DNA from: Natronococcus amylolyticus DSM 10524
Lineage (GTDB): Archaea; Halobacteriota; Halobacteria; Halobacteriales; Natrialbaceae
Direction of reading: 5' to 3'
Length of the DNA stretch: 53,489 nt
NCBI RefSeq assembly: GCF_000337675.1
Contig: NZ_AOIB01000017.1
Span: forward strand, 1-53,489
The position numbers and the translations under genes are program-made. Below are positions 10,645-37,252 of the stretch, piece after piece (position 1 is the first letter of the stretch; every line of letters starts with the position of its first letter). Below the pieces are notes generated by a model. That model saw only the letters and a list, made by a program, of their open reading frames with translations. It ran no database searches and was not told the origin of the DNA.

Positions 10645-11735
10645 TCGATCGTCGCAGCCAACTGTTCGACGTCGGACTCGAGCCGGCTCGCGTACTCGAG
10701 GCGCAGCTCGCGGGCGTCGCTTTTCGTCACGTACTGCCGGCCGCCGATCTGGGTCGCGATCGGATGGTAGTCGGTGACGGAAAAGCCCATCCGATCGAGG
10801 TAGTTCACCACGGGGGTCGACTCGAGGCCCTTTCCGATCGCCGCGCCGGCGAGATCGAAGACGGTGTCGTAATCGGGGAGTTGAACCCCCTCGCCGGTGA
10901 CGTAGCCGGTTGCGTCGTCACGACTGCCGTCGCCGATCTCGACGTTCGTCTCGTGGATCGTCTCCATCACCGCGTACAGCTCGTCGGCGAGTCGCAGCAG
11001 TTGACTCGGAAGCGCCGCGTCGGGCGAGCGCCACTCGACGGTCGGCATCTCGTCGCGCAGTCGAACTGGCGTCCAGACGACGTCGTCCGCGGAGAAGTTT
11101 TCGGCAATCGCGTCCCCGTCGACGCCAGCTGCGAGCGCTTCCTCCTCGAACTCCTCGAAACACCGCTCGAGTCGGCGCGACCACTCGCCGACGCTCTCGA
11201 CGTAGTTCCAGAGCTGGCCGTGTCGCGGAAACTCGGCGTACGCCTCCTTTCGATAACAGTGGGCTCGCGCGCTGTTCGCGACGCGTTCGCCCTGATAGTA
11301 CGGCGAGGAACTGACGAGCGCGAGGGCGGGGTCGAGCGCGATGAGCGCGTTGAGCTGGTCGGTTACGTTTCGCTTCTCGAAGTGGAGGTGCGTTCCGGCA
11401 CAGTAGCTCGCGTACTCGAAGTTCGATCCGAGGACCTCCCGCTGGATCCGCCCGCGCTCGCCGGGCCGGCGCTCGATCCCGTCGCAGTTGATGGGGGTCC
11501 CCAGCGGAACGAGACCCTTGTCGATTCGGTCGGCCTCCGCGAGCACCGCCTCGAGCTGTTCGACAAACGTCGTCCGAAGCTCCGCTATTGACCCGCAGGG
11601 AGGAGTCTTCAGCTCGAACAGCGGTTCGACGAACTCTCGTTCGGTGTACTCGGAGACGTCCGCGAGCGATTCCGGCGGGGTGAGTTCGCCGTCGTCGTCG
11701 ATCACCCAATACTCGACTTCGAGACTCGTGTTCAT
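10641..11735 (-). CDS. gshA: Glutamate-cysteine ligase (gamma-glutamylcysteine synthesis)
   Basis: A 364-residue member of the GCS2/carboxylate-amine ligase family. Haloarchaea accumulate gamma-glutamylcysteine instead of glutathione and make it with this enzyme from Glu, Cys and ATP. The N-terminal strand with SLEVEYWVIDDDGEL supplies the acidic metal/substrate residues. GTHLHFEKRN (about residues 113-122) and MPTVEWRSPDAALP (about 237-250) are the conserved catalytic blocks of the family. It is cytosolic with no signal peptide. The ATG at 11735 (MNTSLEVEYW) is at the family-typical position. It is convergent with the NicO gene, with the stop codons sharing bases. No second-step glutathione synthetase is present, as expected. 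Confidence 0.92.
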   Translation of the reverse strand: MNTSLEVEYWVIDDDGELTPPESLADVSEYTEREFVEPLFELKTPPCGSIAELRTTFVEQLEAVLAEADRIDKGLVPLGTPINCDGIERRPGERGRIQREVLGSNFEYASYCAGTHLHFEKRNVTDQLNALIALDPALALVSSSPYYQGERVANSARAHCYRKEAYAEFPRHGQLWNYVESVGEWSRRLERCFEEFEEEALAAGVDGDAIAENFSADDVVWTPVRLRDEMPTVEWRSPDAALPSQLLRLADELYAVMETIHETNVEIGDGSRDDATGYVTGEGVQLPDYDTVFDLAGAAIGKGLESTPVVNYLDRMGFSVTDYHPIATQIGGRQYVTKSDARELRLEYASRLESDVEQLAATID

Positions 11736-17902: not shown

Positions 17903-19543
17903 GTGAACCGAACCCTCCCTGGCGATGATCTCTCCGTCGGTACTGCTAACGTCGTTGCTCTTCTCGTGGGATTTGTCACGATACCGGTTCTGTTCCGACT
18001 GCTCGGTCCGTCCGGGTTCGGCGACTACGCGTTTCTGCTATCGGTGTTTGCGATCTACATGATCTTCGTCAGTTCCTGGATCACAGACGGCGTCCGAACG
18101 TTCCTGGCGGAGGACCGGCCGACATCCGACCGGGAGCCGTACGTGATCGGGTTCTATCTCCGACTCGCGGTGTTGTCCGCGCTTACTGGCGCCTTCGTCC
18201 TGTTTCTGGGCTCTCGAAACGGATTCGTTGCGACGCTGTTCGGCGAGGAGTACACGACCTACTTCTACGGTCTGGCGCTGTTGGTGATCTCCGTCCAGTT
18301 CCAGTCGTACTCTCGAAAGACGCTTCTGGGACTCGGTCTCGAGCGACACTCCGACGCCCTCAGCGTCCTCAACAACGTCGTGTTCGTCGTGGCCGCGGTT
18401 CCACTCGTCTATCTCGGTTTCGGTGTTTCGGGGGCTCTGGCGGGTTACGCGCTCTCGAGCATCGTCTGCGGTATCGTCGGTCTGGCCCTGATTCACGGCC
18501 GCGTGTCGCTCTCGAGCGTGTTTCGAATACCGCCACGGGAGTTTCCACGCAAAAAAATGCTCACGTCCGCCTCGACGAGCGTCGCGCTTCTCTTCTTGCT
18601 CGCCTCGCTCTACCACATCGATATCGTGATGCTTCAACAGTTCCGCGAGAGTTCGGCGGTCGGCAACTACCGAGCGGCGCTGTTCCTGGCCGAGTTCCTC
18701 TGGTTCGTCCCGATCGCTCTCCAGACTGCGTACGTCGTTCCGACGTCCGACCTGTGGTCTCGAAACCGGCTCGACGAGATTACTGCTCTCGCGTCGAAGA
18801 CGACCCGCTACACACTCTTGCTGACTGCGGCCGTAGCGGTCGTAATCGCCGCGCTGGCCGACGTCGCAGTCCCGATTTACTTCGGTCCCGACGCCACGCC
18901 AGCGATCGGTCCGGCGCTGTTACTGCTGCCCGGTGCGCTCGGATTCGCTCTTGCACGACCCGTCCTCGCGATTTCGCGAGGGGAGGGTACGCTTCGCTAT
19001 CCGGTTCTTGCGACCGCTGGCGCCGCGGGGATCAACGTCGCACTCAACTACCTGCTGATTCCACGGTACGGAATGCACGGTGCGGCGTTCGCGACCACTA
19101 TCGGCTACGGATCGATGTTCGTCTTTCACTGGCTTTCGGCACAGCAGATCGGCTTCGATCCGCTCGCCGATGCACGACTCGTCCGAGTAGCGGCGACGAC
19201 CGCCTTCGCTGCGGTGCCGACGTTCGCCCTTGCGACGGTAGTCACAAACCCGTGGCTTGCGCTGCTTCTCGTCCCTCCGTTTGGACTTCTCGTCCATCTC
19301 GTCTTCGCCGTCCTCACCGGAGCGATAGAACCCGCAGAGCCGTTCGGGGTTCTCGCCGAGCTTCCGTCACCGGCAGGTTCCCAGGCCGAACTCATCCGCG
19401 AGCGCCTCGAGGGCGTCAACGGCGACCTGACCGTTGTGGGCTGGTTCCAGAGCATGCTGTTTCTGGCCGGCGTGACGCTTCTGTTGTCGGGGGTTCTCCT
19501 CGCGACGTTCGGACCGGATACAGGGGTTCCGATCTTTGGGTAG
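17903..19543 (+). CDS. Polysaccharide/oligosaccharide flippase, Wzx (RfbX/MATE-like) family
   Basis: A 546-residue polytopic protein with about 14 membrane helices spread over its length. The N-terminal block GTANVVALLVGFVTIPVLFRLLGPSGFGDYAFLLSVFAIY is typical of Wzx-type flippases, which move lipid-linked saccharides across the membrane. The sequence TYFYGLALLVISVQFQSYSRKTLLGLGLERHSDALSVLNNVVF also matches the family. The last 90 residues add a cytosolic loop and two more helices. The start is GTG at 17903; the frame is open upstream but offers no other start. It is followed after 130 bp by a GT2 gene, with which it probably forms the assembly/export pair of the island. Confidence 0.88.
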   Translation: MNRTLPGDDLSVGTANVVALLVGFVTIPVLFRLLGPSGFGDYAFLLSVFAIYMIFVSSWITDGVRTFLAEDRPTSDREPYVIGFYLRLAVLSALTGAFVLFLGSRNGFVATLFGEEYTTYFYGLALLVISVQFQSYSRKTLLGLGLERHSDALSVLNNVVFVVAAVPLVYLGFGVSGALAGYALSSIVCGIVGLALIHGRVSLSSVFRIPPREFPRKKMLTSASTSVALLFLLASLYHIDIVMLQQFRESSAVGNYRAALFLAEFLWFVPIALQTAYVVPTSDLWSRNRLDEITALASKTTRYTLLLTAAVAVVIAALADVAVPIYFGPDATPAIGPALLLLPGALGFALARPVLAISRGEGTLRYPVLATAGAAGINVALNYLLIPRYGMHGAAFATTIGYGSMFVFHWLSAQQIGFDPLADARLVRVAATTAFAAVPTFALATVVTNPWLALLLVPPFGLLVHLVFAVLTGAIEPAEPFGVLAELPSPAGSQAELIRERLEGVNGDLTVVGWFQSMLFLAGVTLLLSGVLLATFGPDTGVPIFG

Positions 19544-19647: not shown

Positions 19648-19673
19648 GCGCCGGTGGGCCCGTGTCGAACGAA

Positions 19674-20648
19674 ATGGCACTGGTTAGCGTCATTATTCCG
19701 ACGTACAACCGGGAGGAGACGGTTTCGAGAGCGATCGACAGCGTCCTCGAACAGACGCATGAGGACCTTGAGGTCCTCGTGGTCGACGACGGATCGACCG
19801 ACGACACCGCAGCGGTTCTCGAATCCTACGATGACGATCGGGTGCGGCCGATCTACCATGAGACGAATCAGGGGGCGAACGTCGCGCGGAACACGGGCAT
19901 CGAACGCGCCCGGGGGAAGTACGTCGCCTTCCTCGACTCCGACGACGAGTGGCGCCCGGAGAAACTCGAGTCTCAGCTCGACGTTCTCGATGAGCGTTCC
20001 GAGGAGTGGGTCGCAGCCTACTGCGGCTTCGCGTTCGAACTCACCAGCACCTCCGATAGGTTTCGCGGTCTGGCCGCCAGCGTTCTCTCTCGCGCGGACG
20101 GTCAGCCGCAGATGGAGGGAGGGGAGGAACTCATCGGCGAGATACTCGCCGACAACGTTCACACGGGCGCCGGCTCGACGCTGATCGTCCGAACCGACGT
20201 CGCGAGAGACGTCGGCGGATTCGACGAGACGCTCGACCGGTTCCAGGACCCCGAGTTCGTCCTGCGGATTCTCGAGGTCGGGAAGCTCGCCTACGTCGAC
20301 GAACCGCTCGTCGTCCGCGAGGAGACGGGGACGCCGCCCGCGGACACCATCAGACGAGCCGACGAACAGTATCTGTCGCTGTACGCCGACGAGGTCGATC
20401 GGTTCGAAGACGAGGGGTACGAGATCCGCTCGAGCCACGACCTCGTGCTTGCAAAGAGCTACTTCAGTGAGGGACGTCCCGCTCGTGGCTGCTGGCACCT
20501 CCTCCGTGCCGGGCCCGAACTCCGTCACCTGCCGGGTGTCCTCTGGTCGGCCGTCTCCGGGGCCCGACGGCGCCCGTTCCCGTTTCTCGCTACCGGTTTC
20601 GTCCTCGTCGTCGCGCTGATCGGCGGGTGGATCGGACTTCGTTCCTAA
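19674..20648 (+). CDS. GT2 family glycosyltransferase with C-terminal membrane helix
   Basis: A 324-residue GT-A enzyme. The N-terminal nucleotide-binding strand ALVSVIIPTYNREETVSRAI is followed by VLVVDDGSTDDT. The DXD-type metal motif lies in FLDSDDEWRPEKL, with NQGANVARNTGIERARG before it, the classic GT2 order. The processive Q-x-x-R-W motif is not seen, so single sugar transfer is more likely. The C-terminus has a hydrophobic anchor (FPFLATGFVLVVALIGGWIGL). The ATG at 19674 is chosen because a TATA-like GATAATAAA lies about 30 nt upstream; a GTG 12 nt earlier is possible. It is downstream of the flippase and likely builds the same glycan; donor and acceptor are unknown. Confidence 0.88.
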   Translation: MALVSVIIPTYNREETVSRAIDSVLEQTHEDLEVLVVDDGSTDDTAAVLESYDDDRVRPIYHETNQGANVARNTGIERARGKYVAFLDSDDEWRPEKLESQLDVLDERSEEWVAAYCGFAFELTSTSDRFRGLAASVLSRADGQPQMEGGEELIGEILADNVHTGAGSTLIVRTDVARDVGGFDETLDRFQDPEFVLRILEVGKLAYVDEPLVVREETGTPPADTIRRADEQYLSLYADEVDRFEDEGYEIRSSHDLVLAKSYFSEGRPARGCWHLLRAGPELRHLPGVLWSAVSGARRRPFPFLATGFVLVVALIGGWIGLRS

Positions 20649-20925: not shown

Positions 20926-22281
20926 TCAGTGGCCTTCGCGGCGCATCTTCCAGAGGTCGTCGAAGTCGATGACCTCGACGTCGGACTCGTCGATGTACTC
21001 GAGGAGTTCCTCGTAGTCGTCCACATCCATCGTGTTGTCTAGATCGAAGGCGTGGAAGTTCAGGACCGTACACTGATTGTGCTCGACCGCAGTATCGATA
21101 CAGTCCATCGCGATATCGAGATCGTGGCCGATCGTCCGGGGCATCACCAGCGGATCGAAGCCGTGGACGCCCATGAGGTTCGGGCTGCCGGACTGGTTGA
21201 ACCCGCCTGCGTAGTAGTAGTTCGAGGCGATCTCGAGCACCCGATCGTCGAAGTCGTTATGCGGGAAGACGAGGTAGTGGCCGCCCTCGAGTTCGTTGTT
21301 GACGGCCCAGTTCTTGTCCGTATTTATTGTGTCGTCGAGTTCCGCGTCGTCGAGGTCAGTCCATTCGGTATGGGTTCCGTGAGCGACGATCTGGTCGCCG
21401 GCCTCCTGGCGCTCGAGGACCTGCTCGATCGTCATGACCTCGTCGCGCTGGTCTCTGGTCCACTGACGGACGACCGCCTGAACGGCGTTGACGTCGTACT
21501 CGTCGTGGAGATCACCGGCCGGTTCGTAGAAGTCCTCGAATCCGTCGTCCCAGCAGAGGATGACGTATCCCTCGTCTGGTTTCTCGTGGGTGCGCAGGTC
21601 GTCGAACCACACTTCGGCTTCGTCGCCGGTGTTGTGGACGACGAGTCTGATCTCGTCGATCGCGTCCTGCTCGACCGGCGTCGTGCTTTCGTCGGCGAAG
21701 CCGGGACACATCCGGAACCAGCCGGGGGTCTCGTCGCCGTAGGAGATCGACTGGAGCATGTAGCTCGCGTGCCCGCCGTAGATGTCCCGAACCTGGATCT
21801 CGAGGGCGATGTTGTGAGGCGTGGTCGTCTGAACGGCCACCGAGAGATCGAGGTCGTCCATGTCGGTCGCCTCGTCCAGCTCCGTCGCGACGACGGCGTT
21901 GTCCTCGTCCTCGGCCATGAGGCGAATACTCTGGTCGCCGTCGAAGGCGTACTCGTCGTCCATCTCCGCTTCGCCCTCGAGGATCGTCCAGTCGTCGTCG
22001 GTCTCGAAGTCGTTGAGCTGGTCGCCGGGCTGTCTGAACTCTTCGCGGCTGTTGTACTCGGTTTCGACCTGGAGCTCGGGCGATTCGACCTCGTCGCCGT
22101 TTTCGCCGTTACCGTCGTCGTCGCCGTTACCGTCGTCGTCGCCGTTACCGTCGTCGTCGCCGTTACCGTCGTCGTCATCCTCGTCGGAGAGGAAATCCGT
22201 ACAGCCAGCCATGGCCGCCGCGAAGGCCGTTGCACTGGATGCTGCGAGGAACCGTCGTCGAGTGTTCCGTCGTTGGGTCAT
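20926..22281 (-). CDS. Tat lipoprotein polysaccharide deacetylase-like protein with N-terminal carbohydrate-binding-like domain
   Basis: A 451-residue protein with a Tat lipoprotein signal (NTRRRFLAASSA...MAGC, lipobox Cys27), then an Asp/Gly/Asn linker made of GDDDGN repeats (residues 40-60). Residues about 85-235 form a strand-rich jelly-roll-like domain (DFETDDDWTILEGEAEMDD ... AEVWFDDLRTH) resembling carbohydrate-binding modules. The NodB domain follows: ILCWDDGFED (241-250), AHGTHTEW (300-307, a variant of H-x-x-x-H) and FPHNDFD (339-345). Spacing between motifs is normal. It probably binds and deacetylates an extracellular polysaccharide. It is convergent with the GT2 gene, 277 bp apart. 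Confidence 0.84.
   Translation of the reverse strand: MTQRRNTRRRFLAASSATAFAAAMAGCTDFLSDEDDDDGNGDDDGNGDDDGNGDDDGNGENGDEVESPELQVETEYNSREEFRQPGDQLNDFETDDDWTILEGEAEMDDEYAFDGDQSIRLMAEDEDNAVVATELDEATDMDDLDLSVAVQTTTPHNIALEIQVRDIYGGHASYMLQSISYGDETPGWFRMCPGFADESTTPVEQDAIDEIRLVVHNTGDEAEVWFDDLRTHEKPDEGYVILCWDDGFEDFYEPAGDLHDEYDVNAVQAVVRQWTRDQRDEVMTIEQVLERQEAGDQIVAHGTHTEWTDLDDAELDDTINTDKNWAVNNELEGGHYLVFPHNDFDDRVLEIASNYYYAGGFNQSGSPNLMGVHGFDPLVMPRTIGHDLDIAMDCIDTAVEHNQCTVLNFHAFDLDNTMDVDDYEELLEYIDESDVEVIDFDDLWKMRREGH
22105..22176. repeat. Four perfect 18-bp tandem repeats coding a GDDDGN linker
   Basis: The unit GCCGTTACCGTCGTCGTC is repeated four times without a mismatch at 22105, 22123, 22141 and 22159. 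It lies inside the deacetylase gene and encodes the linker between lipid anchor and folded domains on the minus strand. Perfect copies imply recent or ongoing slippage, so linker length may vary between strains. Confidence 0.9.
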
Positions 22282-22609
22282 TGCTGACTCCGGCTAGCGA
22301 CAGCAATGGTATTATTATGGAGCCAATAGGCCCCCGGAATCGTTCAGTTGAGAATCTTATATGAGTGTTAGCTCCGGAGAATACTGCTGATAGAGCCACC
22401 AGATAGCCCGATAGCCTTTTAGCGGAGGACTGTTTATTGGTGGCACACACCTAGTTCACTTTGTGACCCGCTTAGTGGAACTATAGTTAATGGTGGCTCG
22501 CTCCCAGTGTGGTGTAGTTCGACGTGTGCGTGTTGTCGCCCTTCCGGTTGACAAACGGTGTTGCCGGTCGCGACTCCACGCCACAGTCACGCAGTGAGAT
22601 GGTCTCGAG
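22282..22609. other. Divergent promoter region between deacetylase and asparagine-synthase-like gene
   Basis: This 328-bp, relatively AT-rich stretch has no gene. On the minus strand CCATAATAATACC lies about 25-40 nt before the deacetylase ATG, a plausible TATA region. Two similar short blocks, GTTTATTGGTGGC (about 22431) and GTTAATGGTGGC (about 22485), face the plus-strand gene. They resemble the ATAxxAGGTGG part of the shared island promoter element. Confidence 0.4.
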
Positions 22610-24298
22610 ATGAATACGGAACTCTTCGGCGTATTTGGCGGTACAGAAGCGTTCACCCGGTTTCGATCGACGGACGAGTTCGACGAAGTACTCGTTGGCC
22701 CGTCGATAACTGTCGGGATCAGGGATTTTGGGCTCGGAACTCCCGGCTGGACGGCGAGCTACGACGGTGAAAACGGTTGCTGTGTTATCTGGGGCGAGGT
22801 GTACGTTCCCGGCCAAGAAACGAACGCTGCCCGCTGGTTCCTCGATGCCTACGAACGCGACGGTACCGAGGCGCTGGCCGAGCTCAATGGCTCCTATCTC
22901 GCGGTCCTCGATACACCGGACGAGACGTTCGTCGCGACCGATTCGATCCGCTCGCGTGAGTGTTTCTACACGGATGCCCCCGGGGTTCGTGTGTTCGGCA
23001 CCGACTCCGCAACGGTCGCAAAAACCGTTCCCGATCCCTCGTTTTGTCGGGACGGTATCCTCGAGTTTCTTCATCTGGGCGTTGCACTCGGCGAGAAGAC
23101 GAGCGTCGAACAGCTCTCTCGGCTCCCGATCGACAGTCAGTTGCGGGCATCGTCGGTTACCGACCTCGAGCGATTCATCTACGATACCAAGGAGTTCGAC
23201 TACGCCGGAGCGCTCGCGAGCCGACTCGAACGGGCGATCGACCGTCGATCGATCCTCCCCGGACGAAAGGGGCTGCTCCTCTCTGCGGGATACGACTCCC
23301 GAACGCTACTCTCCCAGCTCCCGGATCTCGAACACTGCTACACGGTTGGTAACTCCACGGCCCAGGAGGTCGTCGGCGCCAAACGCCTCGCAGCGCAGTA
23401 CGGTGCCGACCACACTGCGTTCGGACCCGACGAGCGCTACCTCTATGCCGACGGGTCGAAGGTACAGTACTCACAGGGAATCAAGGAATCACTGCATATC
23501 CACCACGCAGGGTACACCGACGAAATCGACGTCGATACGATCTATCACGGCCTGCTGTGCGATACCTTCTTCCGTGGTCACTTCACTGCTCACGTCGACC
23601 TCGAGATGTTCGGCAAACGGGTTCCGTTCGAACGACTCGATCCCGACCCCGATCCGATCGACGTTCTCCTCTCACGGTTCGGTTACAGCCAGGCGACGAG
23701 TCAGGAGCTTTCCGAGCGGACCGCCTTCGACGTCGATCCCGAATCGTTCGTCAGACAGGCCGTCCGAACGGAGTTCGAATCGGTCCTCGATCGCTCCAAC
23801 TCGATCCAGAACGCGCTCAGCTGCTGTGGAATCGCTAACCAGCCGTCGATGCCGTTCCACACCCAGCTTGCCGACAACTTCTTCGCGTCGTTTTTGGCTG
23901 CGGACACGGAACTCCTCGACTGGCACCTCCGCGCGCCGCCAGCCGAACGGTCCACGGACACCTTTCTCGAGGCATGCAAGCAGATCGATCCCGAGATGCT
24001 TCGACACCGACCGCCGGACCGACCACACGATGTTACGCTGTTCAACGAGATGGAACGGTTCGTTCGCCGCAAGGCACCGTTTTTTGACTCCTTCGAATCG
24101 CCATGGCCGAACCGGAAACAGCTCTTTACCAGGTACAACTTCGATCAGCGACTGCTGCCGGAGTTCGAACACGTCCACGATCTCCCCGCCAGACACAAGC
24201 TTCGCCTCAACGACTTTCTGGGGTGGGTCGAGAGCTGGGACGAGAGCGCGGATCAGCATCTGAGATGGATCGATCAGAACTCCTCCTTCGCCCAATAG
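22610..24298 (+). CDS. Asparagine-synthase-like protein lacking the glutaminase cysteine
   Basis: The 562-residue protein has the two-domain layout of asparagine synthetase B. There is an N-terminal Ntn-like domain (residues 1-140, with ELNGSYLAVLDTPDETFVATDSIRSR) and a C-terminal PP-loop synthetase domain with LLLSAGYDSRTLL (residues 222-234). Residue 2 is Asn (MNTELFGVFGG), so the nucleophilic Cys2 needed for glutamine hydrolysis is missing. The PP-loop reads SAGYDS instead of SGGxDS. It may use free ammonia, or have another acyl-adenylating role. Related proteins in O-antigen loci (WbpS type) amidate uronic acids, which fits the nucleotide-sugar dehydrogenase in the island. A true asparagine synthetase role is unlikely. 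Confidence 0.8.
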   Translation: MNTELFGVFGGTEAFTRFRSTDEFDEVLVGPSITVGIRDFGLGTPGWTASYDGENGCCVIWGEVYVPGQETNAARWFLDAYERDGTEALAELNGSYLAVLDTPDETFVATDSIRSRECFYTDAPGVRVFGTDSATVAKTVPDPSFCRDGILEFLHLGVALGEKTSVEQLSRLPIDSQLRASSVTDLERFIYDTKEFDYAGALASRLERAIDRRSILPGRKGLLLSAGYDSRTLLSQLPDLEHCYTVGNSTAQEVVGAKRLAAQYGADHTAFGPDERYLYADGSKVQYSQGIKESLHIHHAGYTDEIDVDTIYHGLLCDTFFRGHFTAHVDLEMFGKRVPFERLDPDPDPIDVLLSRFGYSQATSQELSERTAFDVDPESFVRQAVRTEFESVLDRSNSIQNALSCCGIANQPSMPFHTQLADNFFASFLAADTELLDWHLRAPPAERSTDTFLEACKQIDPEMLRHRPPDRPHDVTLFNEMERFVRRKAPFFDSFESPWPNRKQLFTRYNFDQRLLPEFEHVHDLPARHKLRLNDFLGWVESWDESADQHLRWIDQNSSFAQ

Positions 24299-24434: not shown

Positions 24435-24968
24435 ATGCGTCTGACGCCGTTTCGAAAGAACTCTTCCTCGGACTCGAGTGGCGACGAGTCCACCGTTCAA
24501 GCGTCGACGTCTGTTAGAGTGTTCGAATACAACGAATCGTCGATCGTGTCCAACGACCGCGAGACCGACACGTCGACAACCGGAGCGCCGGCCGAACTCG
24601 AATGGAACGTCGTTTCTCTGCTCGAATCACGCAACGGACCCGTGACGATCGACGAGATCGCGGATCAGCTCTATGAAGCCAGTGGAACCGACGACGTCGA
24701 AGCCTGGGGCGACGTACACGAACGCCTCTCACAGACCGACTTGCCTGCACTCGACGCCTCAGGGGTGGTCGAGTACCGCCCCGAACGTGGAACCGTCGAG
24801 CTCACCGACGACCACTCCTCCGACCGATGGCGCTATCCGATCGCGCTCGCGTTTGCGGTCTCGTTAGCGCTGCTCGTCTCACCGATCGTCTTCGAGATCA
24901 CGGCGGCCGTTTCGATCGTTGGCCTGCTGGTTGCCTGTCTCGGGACCGTCGCTACCATCTACCGGTAA
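24435..24968 (+). CDS. Winged-helix (DUF7344-like) protein with C-terminal membrane helices
   Basis: A 177-residue protein with a Ser/Thr-rich N-terminus, then a winged-helix-like segment (LEWNVVSLLESRNGPVTIDEIADQLYEASG ... VHERLSQTDLPALDASGVVEYRPERGTVELTD, about residues 50-130), and two C-terminal hydrophobic helices (WRYPIALAFAVSLALLVSPIVFEITAAVSIVGLLVACLGTVA). The layout matches haloarchaeal DUF7344 proteins, presumed membrane-linked regulators. It is convergent, with a 16-bp gap, with a second protein of the same architecture. It is likely a regulator of the surrounding glycan genes, but its DNA target is unknown. Confidence 0.7.
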   Translation: MRLTPFRKNSSSDSSGDESTVQASTSVRVFEYNESSIVSNDRETDTSTTGAPAELEWNVVSLLESRNGPVTIDEIADQLYEASGTDDVEAWGDVHERLSQTDLPALDASGVVEYRPERGTVELTDDHSSDRWRYPIALAFAVSLALLVSPIVFEITAAVSIVGLLVACLGTVATIYR

Positions 24969-24984
24969 CGACGACGAGAGGGGC

Positions 24985-25575
24985 CTATCTGACGTACTGA
25001 CCGATCGTCAACGTCGTGAACATTAGCAGGATCAGTGCGCTCAGACCAATACCCGTGATGATCGAGAGCAGCGGCAGTTCGAAGATCGCTCCCAGAAGCA
25101 AAACCGCACCCGCACCGGCAGCACCGATGTAGTAATCGTCCCAGTCCGTTCCTCCCTCCTTTCCGGTGGCGGCGGCCGAGTTCGTGTTCGAATCCGCATT
25201 GAGGTAGTAATCGAGCTGCCGGGCGAGCGGGCGCCGCTCGACGACGCCTCGGTTCTGCTGGTAGTCGATAATACCAGCCTTGTCCAGTTTCGGAAGGTGT
25301 GACTGATACAGTGGGATGTATACGCGCTGGCGCTGGTCCGAGGTTAGCTCCTGTACGGTCGTCTCGTTCTCCCAGGCGGCGACCTGCTCGGCTACGTCAC
25401 GCATCCGTACCGAGCCATCCGTCTCTTGCAGATACTCGAGAACCATCCGTCGGCGCTCGTTCTGAAGAATATGGAAAATCTCGTCGACCGGAAGTTCTTC
25501 GTCGTCGGAGACGATATCTGCTTCGCGGTCCTCACCCCGGTTTCGTTCCTCTGTAACGGTCTCTGTCGAACTCAT
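24985..25575 (-). CDS. DUF7344 winged-helix protein with C-terminal membrane helices
   Basis: A 196-residue protein. After an acidic N-terminus comes the winged-helix core LPVDEIFHILQNERRRMVLEYLQETDGSVRMRDVAEQVAAWE, then the conserved QRVYIPLYQSHLPKLDKAGIIDYQQNRGVVE (about residues 83-113), hallmarks of the haloarchaeal DUF7344 family. Two membrane helices close the protein (YYIGAAGAGAVLLLGAIFEL and LLSIITGIGLSALILLMFTTL). Such proteins are thought to act as transcription regulators tied to the membrane. It has its own TATA box upstream and is convergent with the shorter relative at 24435. Confidence 0.85.
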   Translation of the reverse strand: MSSTETVTEERNRGEDREADIVSDDEELPVDEIFHILQNERRRMVLEYLQETDGSVRMRDVAEQVAAWENETTVQELTSDQRQRVYIPLYQSHLPKLDKAGIIDYQQNRGVVERRPLARQLDYYLNADSNTNSAAATGKEGGTDWDDYYIGAAGAGAVLLLGAIFELPLLSIITGIGLSALILLMFTTLTIGQYVR

Positions 25576-25984: not shown

Positions 25985-26977
25985 ATGAGCGACTCCGATT
26001 GGTGGTTCTTCGATCTCACACTTGTCATCGCAGTAACCGGGTTCGTCACGTTCGGTCTATTCACGCCGATCTCGGGGGCGGTTCGAGTTCTGTTGGGGAT
26101 TCCGCTGTTGCTGTTTCTTCCCGGCTACGCTTTCATCTCTATCCTATATCCGGACGCGTCGGAGGCAGGATACCGATCGTTCGACGACGAGACTCGAGAG
26201 CCGAACCGAGCCGAGCTGAACAACGGCGGACTCCAACCGATCGAACGGTTCGTTCTCTCGGTCGTCGCCAGTATCGCGATCGTTCCGGCAGTCGCGCTCG
26301 CTGCGACCGTAACGCCGTGGGGGATCACGATTCTCCCGGTGCTCGCCGGAACGGCACTCGTGACGATCGCGTTCGCGCTGGTGGGGATCGTTCAGCGGTA
26401 TCGGTGTCCTCCGAACCGCCGATACACTCCCTCGCTATCGGGCGCTCCACTCCTGTTCTCGAACGCCGGCGACTCGTTCAGCCGATCGGATCCGAGTACC
26501 AGGCCGTACAACGTGATGTTTCTCGCCGCGTTGCTCGTCCTGGCGGCCGTCGCCGGATTCGCCGTCGCAAGCCCACCCGACCACGACAGCTACACCGAGT
26601 TCTACCTCGAGACGGAGGAAGTCGACGGTGACACCGAGTACCTCTACGACGAGTCGCTCTCTGCGGGCGAGACGGAGTCGGTGACCGCCTACATCGCAAA
26701 CGAGGAACACGAGGAGCGATCGTACGAGACGGCAGTCGCGTTACAGGACGTGAGCTACGACAACGATAGTGTCTCCGTCGAGGACCAGGACGTTCTCACG
26801 ACTGACTCTGCAACCGTTGACCACGGCGAAACTCACGAGCAATCCCTCGAGTTCGAACCGACGATGACCGGTGACGACGTCCGTCTGGTCTTGTACCTCT
26901 ACGAGGGCGAGGCGCCGGACGATCCGGACGAGGAGAGCGCCTATCGAACGATCAAGCTCCCGGTGACTGTTTCATAA
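25985..26977 (+). CDS. DUF1616 family membrane protein
   Basis: A 330-residue protein with the archaeal DUF1616 arrangement. Four to five membrane helices lie in the N-terminal half: residues about 9-27, 33-53 (VRVLLGIPLLLFLPGYAFISIL, the conserved FLPGYA motif), 86-108 and 112-135, with a further helix near 178-198. An extracytoplasmic strand-rich domain follows (residues 205-330, with acidic residues dominating) and ends TIKLPVTVS. DUF1616 proteins recur in archaeal surface-glycan gene clusters but have no proven role. This gene stands alone, with a TATA-like element about 40 nt upstream. Confidence 0.85.
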   Translation: MSDSDWWFFDLTLVIAVTGFVTFGLFTPISGAVRVLLGIPLLLFLPGYAFISILYPDASEAGYRSFDDETREPNRAELNNGGLQPIERFVLSVVASIAIVPAVALAATVTPWGITILPVLAGTALVTIAFALVGIVQRYRCPPNRRYTPSLSGAPLLFSNAGDSFSRSDPSTRPYNVMFLAALLVLAAVAGFAVASPPDHDSYTEFYLETEEVDGDTEYLYDESLSAGETESVTAYIANEEHEERSYETAVALQDVSYDNDSVSVEDQDVLTTDSATVDHGETHEQSLEFEPTMTGDDVRLVLYLYEGEAPDDPDEESAYRTIKLPVTVS

Positions 26978-28348: not shown

Positions 28349-30340
28349 CTACTCCTGTGCCGGCGACGGGGTACAGAAGCGCACGTCGCCGTTGTCGTAC
28401 ACGGACGACTGTGTCGTCCGGCAGATGCGCTCCTCGGTCGGGTTATCGGAGTAGCCCGGTCCGTCCTCGGCGCTACTGAAGTACGTCGCGTCCTCCGACT
28501 GGGTCGTTCGGTAGACGACGTAGTCGTGTTCCGCGTAGCCATCCTCAGGGAGGATTATCGACGTGGTCGACGGATAGGCCCCGGTTCGCTCGAACACTGT
28601 CTGGTAGGGATGATCGGTGTGAAGCTGTTGATCCGGAGTGATCTCGGATCCCGCAGGCGAGCCGGTCATATCGCCGATCGTGTCTACCGCCGCGAGCTCG
28701 GACTGATCGTAGGCCAGCCGCTCGTGCTGGTCGGAGAACACCGGGCTGTCCGGGTTGCTTTCGGCGGCGAGCATCATCCCAGCCGGGTACAGCAGGACGA
28801 TTACCAGGAGGAGAGCAACGACCGGTGCGGGCGAGAGGTTCCGGCTGAGCGTCCGCAGTCCGATCGCGCCGATAATCGCCATCAACGCATAGAGGAAGGC
28901 AAACCATCGCGTCGGAACGAAGTTCTCGATTCCGAACATCGGTAGCCCGAGCACGAACACGAGCATGATTCCGCTTCCGAGCACCAGCGTGAACACCGAT
29001 TGCTCGGCGCGTCGGCGATGGACGACGTAGAGACTTCCCACGAGCATCAGACCGAACAGCATGAGAAAGCCGAGTTCGTTGACGTAGGGGACGATCTGAT
29101 CGAGCACCGTCGTCCCCGTGTCGGGAACTGCTGCATCTTCGTCACCCGTTGCGCCCGGCGATGCGAGTTCGAGGAATCCGGCGCTTTCCTCGAGCGTTTC
29201 ACCGAACCAGCCGAGGACCGTTCCCAGGAACGAGTCGTCGCGGTACGGCGTCAGAGACCAGACGAAAATCGCGAGACCGAAGTTGAACACGAGGAGCCCG
29301 ATCAGGTTGACCGGTTTCTTGGTCCGGAAGACGCTCGTATCGAGTCTGGTCAGTCCCAGCGGGCCGGTCATAAAGAGGACCTGAGCCAGGAACGCGGCGC
29401 CGAGAAGAACCAGTACGATGAACGTCGATATCTGGTGTGTCAAGATAACCGCGACCGAGAGGAAAACGAGAAACGCGAAGTCGCGGCTCGTGTACTCGAT
29501 ACGCATCACGCGGATCAGGGCGTACACGATCGCGAGGAAAAAGACGAGTCCCATGCTGGTCGGGATGAGATGAACTCCCCACATAACGGTGTAGCTGGCA
29601 ACCGAGAACATCGCGGTCGCAAGGGTCGCCCACCGCGCCGGAACCAGAAGGTTGGCTGCGGCGTAAACGACGAGAATCGAAAGCGGCATGGCAATCCCCA
29701 TCGAGAGGTACAGCCCCATTCGCAACGAGACGTCGTAAACGAGCGTCGATGCGATGACGTACAGGTGGAAGAACGGCGATCCGAAGTGCTTGTCATAGGA
29801 GATCGCTCCGAGCGACTGTTCCAGGTAGACTGCCTGGGTGAGCTCCGTCATGTGCGTCCAGACGTCGATCCCGATGTATCCTGGCGTCGTGTACAGCGCG
29901 GTAAACCGGAAGACGAACGCGAACAACACGAGCTGAAACAGAAGGATTCCGCGATGGAAGTCACGGTCGCTCGTGAACAGTATCTGTCCGAACAGTAACG
30001 TCCCGACAACGCTCGAGATGGCGAAAAACAGCGGTGTCCGGGTGCCCTGCAAAACCGTCACGAGGATCATCACTGCCATTCCGACAGTGACGATACTCGG
30101 AAGCGCCATCGCAGCCGGCGTTGATAGTGTCGGCAGCGTCCGCTCGTTTTCGTTCTGGTGGACCGCGAGGAGATACAGCGCACAGCCGAGGCCGACGACG
30201 ATCGGGATCGTGTTGATGTAGATTTGGGACGCGAAAAACCGCAGCGGGAACAGCAACAGCGCGGCGATCAATCCGGCGATCGCCGCTGTCGTGTCGAGTC
30301 GCAAGGGTCGCACGTTCGACAGCGACATTTTAGATGCCAT
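28349..30340 (-). CDS. Polytopic GT-C type glycosyltransferase-like membrane protein
   Basis: A 663-residue protein with about 13 membrane helices covering residues 15-560 and a soluble C-terminal tail. The first large external loop contains GYIGIDVWTHMTELTQAVYLEQSLGAI, an acidic D-x-W-x-H site like the catalytic loop of GT-C enzymes (PMT/ArnT/GT39 type) that use polyprenyl-linked sugar donors. A second outer loop holds LLASPGATGDEDAAVPDTGTT-like acidic sequence. The ATG at 30340 (MASKMSLSNVRPL) overlaps the preceding GT4 gene by 11 bp, which indicates translational coupling and a shared pathway. Likely role: transfer of a sugar on the outer membrane face. A polymerase (Wzy-like) role is the main alternative. 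Confidence 0.72.
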   Translation of the reverse strand: MASKMSLSNVRPLRLDTTAAIAGLIAALLLFPLRFFASQIYINTIPIVVGLGCALYLLAVHQNENERTLPTLSTPAAMALPSIVTVGMAVMILVTVLQGTRTPLFFAISSVVGTLLFGQILFTSDRDFHRGILLFQLVLFAFVFRFTALYTTPGYIGIDVWTHMTELTQAVYLEQSLGAISYDKHFGSPFFHLYVIASTLVYDVSLRMGLYLSMGIAMPLSILVVYAAANLLVPARWATLATAMFSVASYTVMWGVHLIPTSMGLVFFLAIVYALIRVMRIEYTSRDFAFLVFLSVAVILTHQISTFIVLVLLGAAFLAQVLFMTGPLGLTRLDTSVFRTKKPVNLIGLLVFNFGLAIFVWSLTPYRDDSFLGTVLGWFGETLEESAGFLELASPGATGDEDAAVPDTGTTVLDQIVPYVNELGFLMLFGLMLVGSLYVVHRRRAEQSVFTLVLGSGIMLVFVLGLPMFGIENFVPTRWFAFLYALMAIIGAIGLRTLSRNLSPAPVVALLLVIVLLYPAGMMLAAESNPDSPVFSDQHERLAYDQSELAAVDTIGDMTGSPAGSEITPDQQLHTDHPYQTVFERTGAYPSTTSIILPEDGYAEHDYVVYRTTQSEDATYFSSAEDGPGYSDNPTEERICRTTQSSVYDNGDVRFCTPSPAQE

Positions 30341-31319
30341 GATACGTTTCCTCCCTATCGTCAGTTCGTTCGAGGGATAACTCCGTCGCATCGCGTCCCC
30401 GGTCCTCGAGGACCGCTCGATAACACTCGACGAGGCGATCGCCCATCGACTCGAGACTCAGTCCGTCGATGGCCTCACGACCGTTCGAGCGTCCGGAGCC
30501 GGCGAGAACTGATTCGAGTCCCGCCGCGAGCTCGCGGTCGTCGTCGCTGACGACGCAGTTCTCGAGGCCGCCGATCGTCTCGTCGACGAAACCGACGTCG
30601 GTCGAGACGACAGGGATGTTACAGGCGGCGGCCTCCTTGACAGCCATCGGCCCGGCCTCCCGCTCCGAGGTCACGAGCAGCAGGTCGCTCGCGTTCATGT
30701 AGTACGGCATCTCCCCGTAGGGAACGCCGTCGATCGTTCGCACCTCGAGATCCGCGTCGGCACGGTCGGCGATGCGCTCGGCCCGCGGATAGTCCTTCTC
30801 GCTTCGATCCGGGTCGTACGGGAACAACGCGATTCGCTCGTCTTCGTCCCAGCCGACGCGTTCGCGAGCGTCCTCGCGTGGGATCGGTCTGAACAGTTCC
30901 GTATCGATGCCGAACGGAATCTCGACGTGGTCGACGTCGAGTTCGCGTGACATCGCCGGGCTCGGAACGATCGTCGCGTCGGCAAACCGGGCGCCGTACC
31001 GGCTGATCGTCTCGAGCCAGCCCATGTCGCTCATCAGGTCGGTACCCCAGAGACTCAGCACCACCGGACGCCTCGGCTGGGCGAGTGCAAACGGTGCGAC
31101 GAGACCGTAGTGTCCGTGAACGATGTCGTAGTCGTCCGCCCAGATGTGGGAGAGCACCTTCGGATGAAACCGAAGGTAGTCGATCGGTGTTCGAGGCGAT
31201 TCGGCGGTGTAATCGCCCGGAACGCCGACGACGGTACAGTCGATCCCCCGGTTTTCAAGGACCGAGATCTGCTGTTCGAAGAACGAACGCGTGGTGGTGA
31301 TGAGGTGGAGTACGTGCAT
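30330..31319 (-). CDS. GT4 family glycosyltransferase
   Basis: A 329-residue GT-B enzyme without membrane segments. The N-terminal domain starts MHVLHLITTTRSFFEQQISVLENRGID and includes DIVHGHYGLVAPFAL, the acceptor side of GT4 enzymes. The donor domain has VPSPAMSRELDVDHVEIPFGIDTELFRP, then LLLVTSEREAGPMAVKEAAACNIPVVSTDVG with the E-x7-E pair. It is located 6 bp after the DUF354 gene and overlaps the GT-C gene by 11 bp, so the three are one operon. It probably adds a hexose to the cytoplasmic lipid-linked glycan; donor sugar not determinable. Confidence 0.88.
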   Translation of the reverse strand: MHVLHLITTTRSFFEQQISVLENRGIDCTVVGVPGDYTAESPRTPIDYLRFHPKVLSHIWADDYDIVHGHYGLVAPFALAQPRRPVVLSLWGTDLMSDMGWLETISRYGARFADATIVPSPAMSRELDVDHVEIPFGIDTELFRPIPREDARERVGWDEDERIALFPYDPDRSEKDYPRAERIADRADADLEVRTIDGVPYGEMPYYMNASDLLLVTSEREAGPMAVKEAAACNIPVVSTDVGFVDETIGGLENCVVSDDDRELAAGLESVLAGSGRSNGREAIDGLSLESMGDRLVECYRAVLEDRGRDATELSLERTDDREETYHGI

Positions 31320-31325
31320 GTCGTG

Positions 31326-32393
31326 TCAGTCGGCGTTGGCGGCGACCGTCGATCGGTCCGAGTCGGTCGTCAGGACGGTCTCGAGTTCCCGGACGATGAC
31401 GTCGGTGACGTCGACGCGGTCGGCGAGCAACCGGTCCCGTCGGCGCCGCCAGGTCTCCTCGTCGCGGTTTTCGATGATCGACACCGCCTTCTCGAGGGAG
31501 CGGGCGTGACGACCCTCGTCGTTGAAGTTGAACACGAGTCCGTACTCGTCCTCGAGCTCCTGCATGTATCCCAGCGAGAGGGAGTTCACGTAGACCGCAG
31601 GCGTTCCAAGTATCGCAGCCTCGGCGGCCGTCGTTGCACCCTCGCCGATGAAACAGTCCGCGTACGCGAGCAGGTCGTGTATCTGATCCGGCGACGTCGT
31701 CATCCGGTTGGCCTCGAGCTCGTCGGGAAGGGGAACCTCCGAGGTGATCAGCACGGTCGCCCCGGCGTCCTCGAGCCGTTCGACGGCTTCTATCGGATCG
31801 TTGAACCCACCCTGCCCCATATCGTGCGAGGAGTCCCAACTACTCAACCGCATCACGACGAACGTGTCGTCCGGCTCCAGTCCGGCTTCCTCGAGGACCG
31901 TCGGATCGGGTTCGAACCGATCGGGGTGAAGGTAGGCGAGTTCGTGGTAGCCGGGGTACTCGACCTTCTTCGACCCGATGTCGCCGTCGTAACACTCCGG
32001 TGTACAGATGATGTCGGCGAACGGGTACGCGAGCATCTTGATGAGCGTCGCGTGTTCGGTGTCGTAGAAGACGACGCTTTTCGCGCCGACAAGCTTTGCG
32101 ACGTGAGTCGCGGCGGGGCCACCGATGGCCGTAATAACGTCAGGCTTGATCTTCCGCGCTCGGGCCAGCAGTCGCGCCTCGTAGGTCGCCTGTACCCTCG
32201 CGAGCGAGAACAGGGAGTCGGACTCGCCGGCCAGAATCTCGTGGTCGATGTCGTAGGACTCGAGTAGATCCCTGACGACTTCGTTCTCCCGCGCGAAGAC
32301 GTAGACGTCGTTCCCATCCGCCTCGAGTTCCGCGATAGCGTGTTTGAAAAAGTGGACGTGGGCCGGGTGCTGGATCGTTACGATGACGCGCAT
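31326..32393 (-). CDS. DUF354 family protein, GT-B/MurG-like
   Basis: The 355-residue protein has the DUF354 pattern: MRVIVTIQHPAHVHFFKHAIAEL at the N-terminus, KPDVITAIGGPAATHVAKLVGAKSVVFYDTEHA (about residues 83-115), and a C-terminal LLAYADCFIGEGATTAAEAAILGTPAVYVNS that mirrors the donor-site helix of MurG and UDP-GlcNAc 2-epimerase folds. DUF354 genes are common in archaeal glycan loci. The enzyme is cytosolic, probably a GT-B glycosyltransferase or sugar epimerase. It is second in the operon behind the nucleotide-sugar dehydrogenase (146-bp gap) and first of the tightly linked three. Confidence 0.85.
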   Translation of the reverse strand: MRVIVTIQHPAHVHFFKHAIAELEADGNDVYVFARENEVVRDLLESYDIDHEILAGESDSLFSLARVQATYEARLLARARKIKPDVITAIGGPAATHVAKLVGAKSVVFYDTEHATLIKMLAYPFADIICTPECYDGDIGSKKVEYPGYHELAYLHPDRFEPDPTVLEEAGLEPDDTFVVMRLSSWDSSHDMGQGGFNDPIEAVERLEDAGATVLITSEVPLPDELEANRMTTSPDQIHDLLAYADCFIGEGATTAAEAAILGTPAVYVNSLSLGYMQELEDEYGLVFNFNDEGRHARSLEKAVSIIENRDEETWRRRRDRLLADRVDVTDVIVRELETVLTTDSDRSTVAANAD

Positions 32394-32539: not shown

Positions 32540-33913
32540 TTATATTCTCCTGTAGCTGAAGCCCTGGTCGGTTGCATCGTCGGCGTCGAACGCCCCTGGA
32601 ATATCGACCAGTGCAGGGGAATCGTTGAGCGCCGTCGCCATCGTTCCGAGATCGAGTTCGTCGAACTCCGCGTGCGGAGTCGCCATGAGAACGCCGTCGA
32701 AGCCCGCAAACGAGAGCGAGTCCTGCACGTCGATTCCGAACGACCGTTCGACGGCGTCGTCGTCCGCGTGGGGATCGTAGCCGACGACGTCGACGTCGAA
32801 CTGCTGGAGCCGATCGATCACGTTCGTGATCTTCGAACTCCGAATGTCGCCCACATCCGGCTTGTACGATAGTCCGAGCACGAGTATCCGACTCTCACAG
32901 AGGGTCTTGTGTCCGTCGTTGAGCGCCTTGATCGTGAGATCGGAGATGTGATCCGGCATCGACTCGTTGACGCTCCGGCTCGTGAGAATCAGTTCCGGAT
33001 CGGCACCGGCCTGTTTCGCCCGATGAGCGAAGAAGTACGGGTCGACCGGAATACAGTGGCCGCCGACCAGTCCGGGCTGGTAGTCGTGGAAGTTCCACTT
33101 CGTTCCCGCGGCCTCGAGCACGTCGTGCGTGTCGATCCCCATCTCTTCGAGCGCCATCGAGAGCTCGTTCATCAGCGCGATGTTGACGTCGCGCTGGACG
33201 TTTTCGATGACCTTGCACGCTTCCGCGACTTCGATCGACGGCGCCCGGTGGACGCCCGCGTCGACGACGGACTCGTACAGCGTCGCGACGTCCTCGAGGA
33301 CGGTATCGTCCTGTCCACCGACGACCTTGACGACGCTGTCGAGCGAGTGCTCGCCGTCGCCGGGGGTCGCTCGCTCGGGCGAGTACGCGAGGTAGAAGTC
33401 CTCGCCGGCCTCGAGTCCGGATGCGTCCTCGATGGCCGGCGCGAACTCCTCGCGCGTGACCCCCGGATACACCGTCGACTCGAGGATTACCGTCGTTCCA
33501 CGTGTCAGGTGCGTGCCGACGGTCTCGGCGGCGCTTTCGATGAACGCGAGATTCGGTCGTTCGCCCTCGACGGGCGTCGGGACCGTAACGAGCACGTAGT
33601 CGGCGTCGCGTACCGCGGCCGAGTCGGTCGTATAGCTGATGTCACCGTCGAGGATTGCTTCGTCCGAGAGATCCCCGGTCGTATCGACCCCGTTCTGTAG
33701 CGTCTGGACCTTCGAGTCGTCGACGTCGAAACCGACGACGTGGTAGTCTGCCTGTGCGAACCCGACCGCGAGCGGGAGCCCGACGTAGCCGAGCCCGACG
33801 ACACAGACGGTCGCATCTCGAAGGCTTCCCTCTGCCGACTGGGTGAGTCCGTCCGGCCGATCGCTCTCTGGTCCGTCAGTTCGTCTCTCGGTGTCGCTGA
33901 GTGGTGGGGTCAT
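32540..33913 (-). CDS. UDP-sugar 6-dehydrogenase (nucleotide sugar dehydrogenase, WecC/TviB/WbpA group)
   Basis: A 457-residue enzyme that oxidises a UDP-hexose (often UDP-GlcNAc or UDP-ManNAc) to the uronic acid with two NAD+. The Rossmann motif VVGLGYVGLPLAVGF spans residues 38-52. The catalytic lysine lies in EACKVIENVQRDVNIALMNEL (Lys234), and the nucleophilic cysteine in PGLVGGHCIPVDPYFF (Cys287). The UDP-binding C-terminal domain follows (LGLSYKPDVGDIRSSK). The P-x-x-V-G-G-H-C-I-P-V-D-P form is typical of the N-acetylhexosamine-specific branch rather than UDP-glucose dehydrogenase. A 30-residue polar N-terminal tail is unusual. It leads the minus-strand glycan operon. Confidence 0.9.
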   Translation of the reverse strand: MTPPLSDTERRTDGPESDRPDGLTQSAEGSLRDATVCVVGLGYVGLPLAVGFAQADYHVVGFDVDDSKVQTLQNGVDTTGDLSDEAILDGDISYTTDSAAVRDADYVLVTVPTPVEGERPNLAFIESAAETVGTHLTRGTTVILESTVYPGVTREEFAPAIEDASGLEAGEDFYLAYSPERATPGDGEHSLDSVVKVVGGQDDTVLEDVATLYESVVDAGVHRAPSIEVAEACKVIENVQRDVNIALMNELSMALEEMGIDTHDVLEAAGTKWNFHDYQPGLVGGHCIPVDPYFFAHRAKQAGADPELILTSRSVNESMPDHISDLTIKALNDGHKTLCESRILVLGLSYKPDVGDIRSSKITNVIDRLQQFDVDVVGYDPHADDDAVERSFGIDVQDSLSFAGFDGVLMATPHAEFDELDLGTMATALNDSPALVDIPGAFDADDATDQGFSYRRI

Positions 33914-35446: not shown

Positions 35447-37252
35447 ATGTGTGGTATCATTGCACGAATTGGATCCGACGACGCGGCCGACACGTTGCTG
35501 ACGGGACTCGAAAACCTCGAGTACCGCGGCTACGACTCTGCGGGGATCGCGGTCCAGAACGGTTCGGGTGTGAAGGTGCACAAGACGTCCGGCGAGGTTT
35601 CGGACCTCAAATCGAAGCTGAACTACCTGCCGACCGGTAACGTCGGCATCGGACACACCCGCTGGAGTACTCACGGTCCGCCGACCGAAGAAAACGCACA
35701 CCCCCACACCGACTCCGCCGGTGACGTCGCCGTCGTTCACAACGGCGTCATCGACAACTACGCGGAGCTTCGGACGGAACTGGCAGAGAAGGGACACGTC
35801 TTCCAGAGCGATACGGACACCGAGGTCATCCCGCACCTGATCAACGAGTACCGACAGGAGCTGCCGACCGAGGCCGCGGTGCGCAAGGCAGTCGAGACAC
35901 TCGAGGGAAGCTACGCGATCGCGGCGATCGTCGAGGACGAAGACCGCGTCTACGCGGCGCGAAAGGGATCCCCCCTGGTACTCGGCCTCGGAACCGACGA
36001 CTGGTTCCTCGCCAGCGACGTTCCAGCCTTCCTCGATTACACCGACGAGGTCATCTACCTCGAGGACGGCGACGTCGTCGTTCTCGAGCCCGAGTCCTAC
36101 GAGATCACCGATCTCGAGGGTGAGCCGGTTCACCGCGAGACCGACACCGTCGACTGGGACCCAGAAGACGCCGGTAAGGGTGAGTACGACCACTACATGA
36201 AAAAGGAGATCCACGGCCAGCCGACCTCGCTCGCGAACACGATCGAGGGTCGCGTCGAGGACGGCGAGGTCGACATCGAGTCGCTGCCCGCCGGCACCTT
36301 TACGAACGTCGAAGAGGTCCAGTTCGTCGCCTGCGGGACCTCGTACCACGCTGCGCTGTACGGTGCCCAGCTGCTGAAGGCGTCGGATATCCGCGCGGAA
36401 GTGATCCGTGCGAGCGAGTACGACTCCGCCTCGGGTCCCGTCGACGAGAACACCCTGACTATCGCAGTTACGCAAAGTGGTGAAACCGCCGACACGCTGC
36501 AGGCGATCCGCAAAGCGGCTGACCGCGGTGCACGAACGCTGGCGGTTACGAACGTCGTCGGTTCGACGATCGCCCGCGAGACCGACGACGCGATGTACAT
36601 CCGCGCCGGCCCCGAGGTTGGGGTCGCCGCGACGAAGACGTTCTCCTCGCAGGCGGTCTCGCTTGCGCTGGTCAGCCAGCGTATCGCGGCCGACATCCCC
36701 CACGCCGATCAGGTCGACGACGTCGACGTCATGCTCGAGAGCCTCGAGGACCTCCCGTCGCAGGTCGAGGAGATCCTCGAGACCACCGACGCCGAACGAC
36801 TGGCGAAGCAGTACATCGACAGTGACGCCTTCTTCTTCATCGGCAACGGGCTCGGACACCCCGTTGCGCTCGAGGGGGCTCTGAAGTTCAAGGAGATCAC
36901 GTACGAGCACGCCGAAGGGTTCGCCTCCGGCCAGCTCAAACACGGTCCCCTGGCGCTCGTCACGGAACGGACCCCGGTCTTTGCGGTCTGCACCGGCGGC
37001 GACGACGGCAAGACGAAGACGAACGCGATCGAGGCACAGACCCGAGGCGCGTCGATCGTCGCCGCCTCGCCGGACGACCACCCCGTCGTCGACGCGGCCG
37101 AGGCCCATCTCTCGGTTCCGGACACGCATCCCGTCTGGGCCGGGCTGCTCGCGAACGTCCAACTGCAGTTGGTCTCGTACTATGCTGCGGATCTGCTCGG
37201 CCGACCGATCGACAAGCCACGTAACCTGGCAAAGAGCGTCACGGTCGAGTAG
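35447..37252 (+). CDS. glmS: Glutamine--fructose-6-phosphate aminotransferase (isomerizing)
   Basis: The 601-residue enzyme makes glucosamine-6-phosphate from fructose-6-phosphate and glutamine, the entry to UDP-GlcNAc. The start ATG at 35447 exposes the catalytic cysteine as residue 2 (MCGIIARIG). The Ntn glutaminase domain continues with LENLEYRGYDSAGIA, GHTRWSTHG and VHNGVIDNY. The isomerase half has two SIS domains: QFVACGTSYHAALYGAQLLK (about residue 290) and FFIGNGLGHPVALEGALKFKEITYEHAEGF (about 465). The conserved C-terminal PRNLAKSVTVE is intact. It is monocistronic with a long upstream region. It supports the glycan island by supplying amino-sugar precursors. Confidence 0.96.
   Translation: MCGIIARIGSDDAADTLLTGLENLEYRGYDSAGIAVQNGSGVKVHKTSGEVSDLKSKLNYLPTGNVGIGHTRWSTHGPPTEENAHPHTDSAGDVAVVHNGVIDNYAELRTELAEKGHVFQSDTDTEVIPHLINEYRQELPTEAAVRKAVETLEGSYAIAAIVEDEDRVYAARKGSPLVLGLGTDDWFLASDVPAFLDYTDEVIYLEDGDVVVLEPESYEITDLEGEPVHRETDTVDWDPEDAGKGEYDHYMKKEIHGQPTSLANTIEGRVEDGEVDIESLPAGTFTNVEEVQFVACGTSYHAALYGAQLLKASDIRAEVIRASEYDSASGPVDENTLTIAVTQSGETADTLQAIRKAADRGARTLAVTNVVGSTIARETDDAMYIRAGPEVGVAATKTFSSQAVSLALVSQRIAADIPHADQVDDVDVMLESLEDLPSQVEEILETTDAERLAKQYIDSDAFFFIGNGLGHPVALEGALKFKEITYEHAEGFASGQLKHGPLALVTERTPVFAVCTGGDDGKTKTNAIEAQTRGASIVAASPDDHPVVDAAEAHLSVPDTHPVWAGLLANVQLQLVSYYAADLLGRPIDKPRNLAKSVTVE

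Follow-up and report, generated by a model that had tools for sequence, protein, structure and literature searches.

What does a protein with the two-domain layout of AsnB do in a polysaccharide locus when its glutaminase domain has no catalytic cysteine? The gene at 22610..24298 (+ strand) raises this question in the window, by which we mean the whole stretch of DNA analyzed (53,489 nt). We examined it by gene-calling, family models and comparison of orthologues and their loci.

A divergent member of the AsnB superfamily

The gene encodes an AsnB-like protein of 562 aa, as judged from the open reading frame, family scores, orthologues and profiles. Profile alignments divided it into an altered N-terminal Ntn-type domain (residues ~1-190) and a PP-loop ATP pyrophosphatase domain (residues ~195-562). 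The predicted protein begins MNTELFGVFGG, so that residue 2 is Asn, and the segment MNTELFGVF (22610..22636, +) has no Cys at the nucleophile position, whether this is residue 2 or 3. An alternative upstream start exposing a Cys had been considered in the preliminary description of this DNA; an in-frame TGA at 22595-22597 lies 12 bases 5' of the ATG, with just GAT GGT CTC GAG in between, and no upstream start can therefore expose a Cys. The PP-loop LLSAGYDSRTLL occupies residues 223-234 (23276..23311, +), and HGLLCDTFFRG at residues 313-323 (23546..23578, +) is the equivalent of SGEGSDEVFGG in AsnB. The reading frame is thus real, and the residue 2 other than Cys, the AsnB layout and the PP-loop were correctly described.

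The protein scored narrowly under the threshold of the Pfam Asn_synthase model (16.8 vs 21 bits) and reached 28.1 bits against the 267.1-bit cut-off of TIGR01536 (asparagine synthase), scores which mark it as a divergent superfamily member. A phmmer search of the PDB with the single window protein returned nothing, and a profile was needed. The profile of 44 orthologues matched beta-lactam synthetase (BLS; 1jgt) best (E 4.6e-5, residues 57-275), followed by human ASNS (E 0.002), CarA (E 0.04) and AsnB (E 0.23). With hhalign it matched a profile of haloarchaeal paralogues over 486 columns (E 2.5e-44, residues 28-529), and the paralogue profile matched the hydroxyamidotransferase 7ylz, 1jgt and AsnB 1ct9 at 1e-34 to 1e-24. 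These PDB matches and the paralogue alignment bear out the AsnB-superfamily ancestry first proposed. By sequence profile, the protein has the superfamily's SxGxDS PP-loop, downstream PPi-loop Asp, and Ntn-type and synthetase domains; an AlphaFold2 model from ten sequences was not reliable (mean pLDDT 37.8).

Loss of the glutaminase nucleophile across the family

The window protein has one residue more before FGVF than E. coli AsnB (MNTEL-FGVF vs MCSI-FGVF), which places the catalytic Cys position at residue 3 and not at Asn2. Residue 3 was Thr in the window protein and Lys or Arg in 34 of the 44 orthologues, and no aligned orthologue (0/44) had Cys at residue 2 or 3. AsnB Asn74 aligned with Trp61, an aromatic position (Trp, Phe or Tyr) in 43/44 orthologues, and Gly62 and Glu63 of the glutaminase pocket were retained. 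Since a Met preceding Asn, Lys or Arg usually stays on, no Ntn processing is expected. The absence of Cys from the whole alignment and the aromatic residue in place of Asn74 confirm the loss of the nucleophile.

The gene had also been taken for an altered, Cys-less AsnB, and this needs qualification. The loss extends through the family, but it is not peculiar to this gene: no MC start was found among the N-termini of the haloarchaeal AsnB-like paralogues examined, indicating that haloarchaeal AsnB-like proteins share the loss of Cys and that it does not set the gene apart. The two-domain AsnB-like proteins of the same genome (e.g. L091, L092, L093 and L003) and their relatives (L105-L124) lacked an MC start and carried SGGxDSR. 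No protein of this genome reached the asparagine synthase cut-off. The paralogues (~570-640 aa) resemble the window protein in their near-full-length profile match, their lack of Cys2 and their SGGxDSR PP-loop; they differ in forming a separate clade and in their identity, which is about a third or less and thus clearly separated from the 45% or more of the orthologues. All 44 orthologues grouped in one clade (support 0.59; 0.995 with two sister paralogues).

Orthologues at E<=1e-30 were present in 121 of 391 sampled Halobacteria genomes, and those with at least 45% identity in 84/125 sampled Natrialbaceae (manual count). Among close relatives, dN/dS was 0.05-0.13 in both domains, indicating similar purifying selection and an N-terminal domain that is not decaying. 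With this distribution and this constraint, the Cys-less state is far beyond chance. No relatives were found in viral contigs (two scans), and in the literature searched we found no description of this haloarchaeal family.

Retention of the ATP site in the synthetase domain

The synthetase domain was invariant in all 44 orthologues at G227, D229, S230 and R231 of the PP-loop and at D318, D432, E253, E293, H298, H313, R395, W438 and H439. For G227, D229, S230 and Asp318, invariance held down to ~41% identity. The PPi-loop SGEGSDE of AsnB corresponds to SGLYAD in the paralogues and to HGLLxDT in the orthologue family, with Asp kept and Glu replaced by Leu; this mapping was built on the paralogue profile and 7ylz because hhalign to AsnB misaligns past the PP-loop. 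In the motif alignment, Leu315 took the position of AsnB Glu348, and Leu was found there in 37/44 orthologues. BLS has Tyr348 at this position, part of a catalytic set that comprises a Tyr348-Glu382 dyad and Lys443. The Tyr is thus not conserved, and equivalents of Glu382 and Lys443 could not be placed. No Lys matching AsnB Lys449 was seen in the orthologue alignment, in a region that aligns poorly. With Leu at the Glu348 position and no match to Lys449, the known mechanism of catalysis cannot be taken for granted, and neither the AsnB nor the BLS active site appears to be simply retained.

Compared with E. coli AsnB (1ct9), the protein shares the two domains, FGVF near the N-terminus, the PP-loop and equivalents of Asp351 and Asp405, but lacks Cys1, has Trp/Phe/Tyr for Asn74 and Leu for Glu348, and reaches 28 of 267 bits. 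BLS (1jgt) and CarA (1q15), which work without glutamine hydrolysis, have the same AsnB fold with a PP-loop synthetase domain. Unlike BLS, the window protein is archaeal, lies in a glycan and not an antibiotic locus and has Leu at the Tyr348 position, and their similarity amounts to only ~25 bits.

A conserved glycan gene cluster

We gene-called 54 orthologue loci, 50 of them non-redundant, covering ~10 kb to either side as far as the contig reached, and more in the window. Upstream of the AsnB-like gene, the window carries a polysaccharide flippase (Polysacc_synt; 17903..19543, +; a neighbour in 28 of the 50 loci), a GT2 glycosyltransferase (19662..20648, +; 25/50) and a divergently adjacent polysaccharide deacetylase (20926..22281, -), which was present in 25 loci and was the opposite-strand upstream neighbour in 19 of the 50. 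Directly 3' of the gene lie two convergent genes for DUF7344 putative regulators (24519..24968, +, and 24985..25575, -; the latter in 35/50 loci). They are followed by genes for a DUF1616 protein (25985..26977, +; 26/50) and a conserved hydrophobic protein of 663 aa with no Pfam match that is probably a multi-pass membrane protein (28349..30340, -; 28/50). A GT4 glycosyltransferase (30330..31319, -; 30/50), a DUF354 glycosyltransferase-like protein (31326..32393, -; 33/50) and a nucleotide-sugar 6-dehydrogenase (32540..33913, -; 30/50) come next, and GlmS (glutamine-fructose-6-P transaminase; 35447..37252, +), with an MCGII start, closes the cluster in the window. The UDP-sugar 6-dehydrogenase first noted for this glycan locus therefore belongs to the same cluster. 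A GCS2 (glutamate-cysteine ligase family 2) protein is encoded outside it, at 10641-11735 (-).

Further neighbours among the 50 loci were a DPM-like GT2 (28), GlmS (16), archaeal GlmU (9) and archaeal GlmM (7), and the models for the last three scored above cut-off for members of these loci. In 14 loci, glmS was the immediate same-strand upstream neighbour, at a gap of -4 to 154 nt. No DPM-like GT2 was found in the window itself; such proteins are alike only in general kind to AepG, the dolichol-phosphate glucuronosyltransferase of the acidic EPS of Haloarcula hispanica (PMC9943897). A DUF354 homologue (E<=1e-60) occurred in every genome with the AsnB-like gene (121/121) compared with 84/270 without it (Fisher p ~2e-45, not corrected for phylogeny), and the 84 genomes with a DUF354 protein alone mark the AsnB-like step as optional.

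The best specific match of the window's dehydrogenase was TviB (UDP-GlcNAc C6 dehydrogenase), which was the nearest specific model for all 7 dehydrogenases tested, the window's included. Because the dehydrogenases score under the TviB equivalog cut-off (338 vs 592 bits for the window's), HexNAc specificity is likely, not proven. A dehydrogenase of this kind fits N-acetylhexosaminuronic acid; WbpS amidates sugars of this class. Judged from its sequence and its neighbours, the gene product is a Cys-less AsnB-like enzyme, conserved in haloarchaea and linked to the synthesis of HexNAc-uronic-acid polysaccharide, for which amide formation is the predicted chemistry.

Predicted function and alternative explanations

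The AsnB fold, the intact ATP site, the missing glutaminase and the surrounding HexNAc-uronic-acid cluster point to a protein that forms an amide on the carboxylate of the uronic acid. We put at about one half the probability that this member of the AsnB/beta-lactam-synthetase superfamily is an amide synthetase dependent on ATP but not on glutamine, acting on the C6 carboxylate of a HexNAc-uronic acid. GlmS, GlmM, GlmU and the TviB-like dehydrogenase would make UDP-N-acetylhexosaminuronic acid; the AsnB-like enzyme would adenylate the C6 carboxylate of the N-acetylhexosaminuronic acid, and the activated carboxylate would be joined to an amine, with free ammonia the simplest choice and an amino acid or amino sugar possible. 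Part of the acidic haloarchaeal surface polysaccharide would thereby become a uronamide or substituted amide. Gene deletion in P. gingivalis showed that the AsnB-type WbpS makes uronamides (PMC7468200), archaeal ManNAcA carries threonine at C6 in Methanococcus voltae (PMC2952790), and in the AS-like enzyme PesC ammonia can replace glutamine (PMC13060819). We found no direct evidence that Natronococcus glycans contain a uronamide.

The idea of a sugar amidotransferase thus stands in part. Superfamily, missing Cys, PP-loop and a locus with a uronic-acid-forming dehydrogenase agree with it, but its assignment to the WbpS type was not supported: eps_aminotran_1 (TIGR03108) gave no match to the window protein even at E<=1, and the best relative of solved structure was beta-lactam synthetase. 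TIGR03108 weakly matched 16/44 relatives. The protein and WbpS/WbqG have in common the superfamily, the presence of a HexNAc-type 6-dehydrogenase in the glycan locus and the proposed amidation of the carboxylate of a uronic acid; WbpS, in contrast, is described as glutamine-dependent, and the window protein has no Cys. If the proposed amide synthetase is real, the gene set of GlmS, GlmM, GlmU, TviB-like dehydrogenase, DUF354 and GT4 transferases, flippase and AsnB-like protein predicts, for about a third of the sampled Halobacteria genomes, surface glycans that contain amidated HexNAc-uronic acid. The biosynthesis of haloarchaeal acidic exopolysaccharides is little understood (PMC9943897), and a glutamine-independent AsnB-like enzyme is directly testable.

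The most tenable alternative, though an unlikely one, is a ligase for larger amines. It would adenylate a carboxylate (of a uronic acid or an amino acid, e.g. glycine) and pass it to an acceptor, either an amino acid or the glucosamine that the neighbouring GlmS provides. Amines, not ammonia, are the substrates of lasso cyclases and of beta-lactam synthetase, and the latter is the closest structural relative of this glutaminase-less protein; the 14 loci with glmS directly upstream and the adjoining polysaccharide deacetylase also agree with a larger amine. The bond would resemble the N-glycyl-glucosaminyl bridges of Halococcus morrhuae walls (PMC4187196), and Methanococcus has an amino-acid-substituted uronic acid (PMC2952790). 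However, the BLS Tyr348 is not conserved, and some of the GlmS genes have GlmM and GlmU genes nearby, suggesting that GlmS serves UDP-GlcNAc synthesis. A more speculative and unlikely reading would be a haloarchaeal class of AsnB-fold amide synthetase with a new kind of active site, lacking both Cys and Glu/Tyr348 but with a number of invariant His residues. Such an enzyme would draw its carboxylate from a GlcNAc-uronic-acid polymer, and the amine might be an amino acid or glucosamine. The surface polysaccharide of haloarchaea would then carry a modification or cross-link that has gone unrecognised, and the gene would give a genetic handle on how archaeal wall bridges form.

The protein could instead have lost catalysis or serve in regulation, binding nucleotide but forming no amide, perhaps as a partner of GlmS or of a glycosyltransferase. 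The Cys and the Glu348 equivalent are lost, no Lys449 equivalent is recognisable and the gene is linked to glmS, but the invariant PP-loop residues and Asp318, together with many family-specific invariant His, Arg and Glu in the synthetase domain, make this improbable. Amidation of poly-gamma-glutamate for the poly-gamma-glutamine wall of Natronococcus (glutaminylglycan), described from N. occultus (PMC4243693), was rejected as very improbable: all 9 Natronococcus genomes carry the gene, but so do many other genera, too wide a distribution for this role, and the genome has no PgsB-type poly-gamma-glutamate synthase and no other wall-synthesis candidate was found. A true asparagine synthetase using ammonia, to which the distant 28-bit TIGR01536 match could point, is scarcely credible and was rejected, given a score far under 267 bits, the absence of the gene from 270/391 Halobacteria and its glycan-pathway link.

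Several glmS-like genes occur in the same genome (e.g. C31:306786-308659 and C33:32581-34455), the one on C31 seemingly split over two frames, which may reflect a frameshift or an error of assembly. Four loci have another AsnB-like gene directly upstream of the first on the same strand (gap -4 to 56 nt), encoding Cys-less, more canonical proteins of 641-643 aa (L055:7161-9086, with the next gene from 9083 on; L067:7186-9114, from 9111 on; L068:7104-9029; L069:7081-9012, from 9012 on). The overlap of 1-4 nt in three of the four suggests that these pairs are translationally coupled. Some loci add, near the AsnB-like gene, a PF14397 sugar-transfer-associated ATP-grasp protein and a PKD-domain protein of the AstE/AspA type (L059:4885-6045; L046:12568-13767), neighbours that would also fit glycan amide chemistry.
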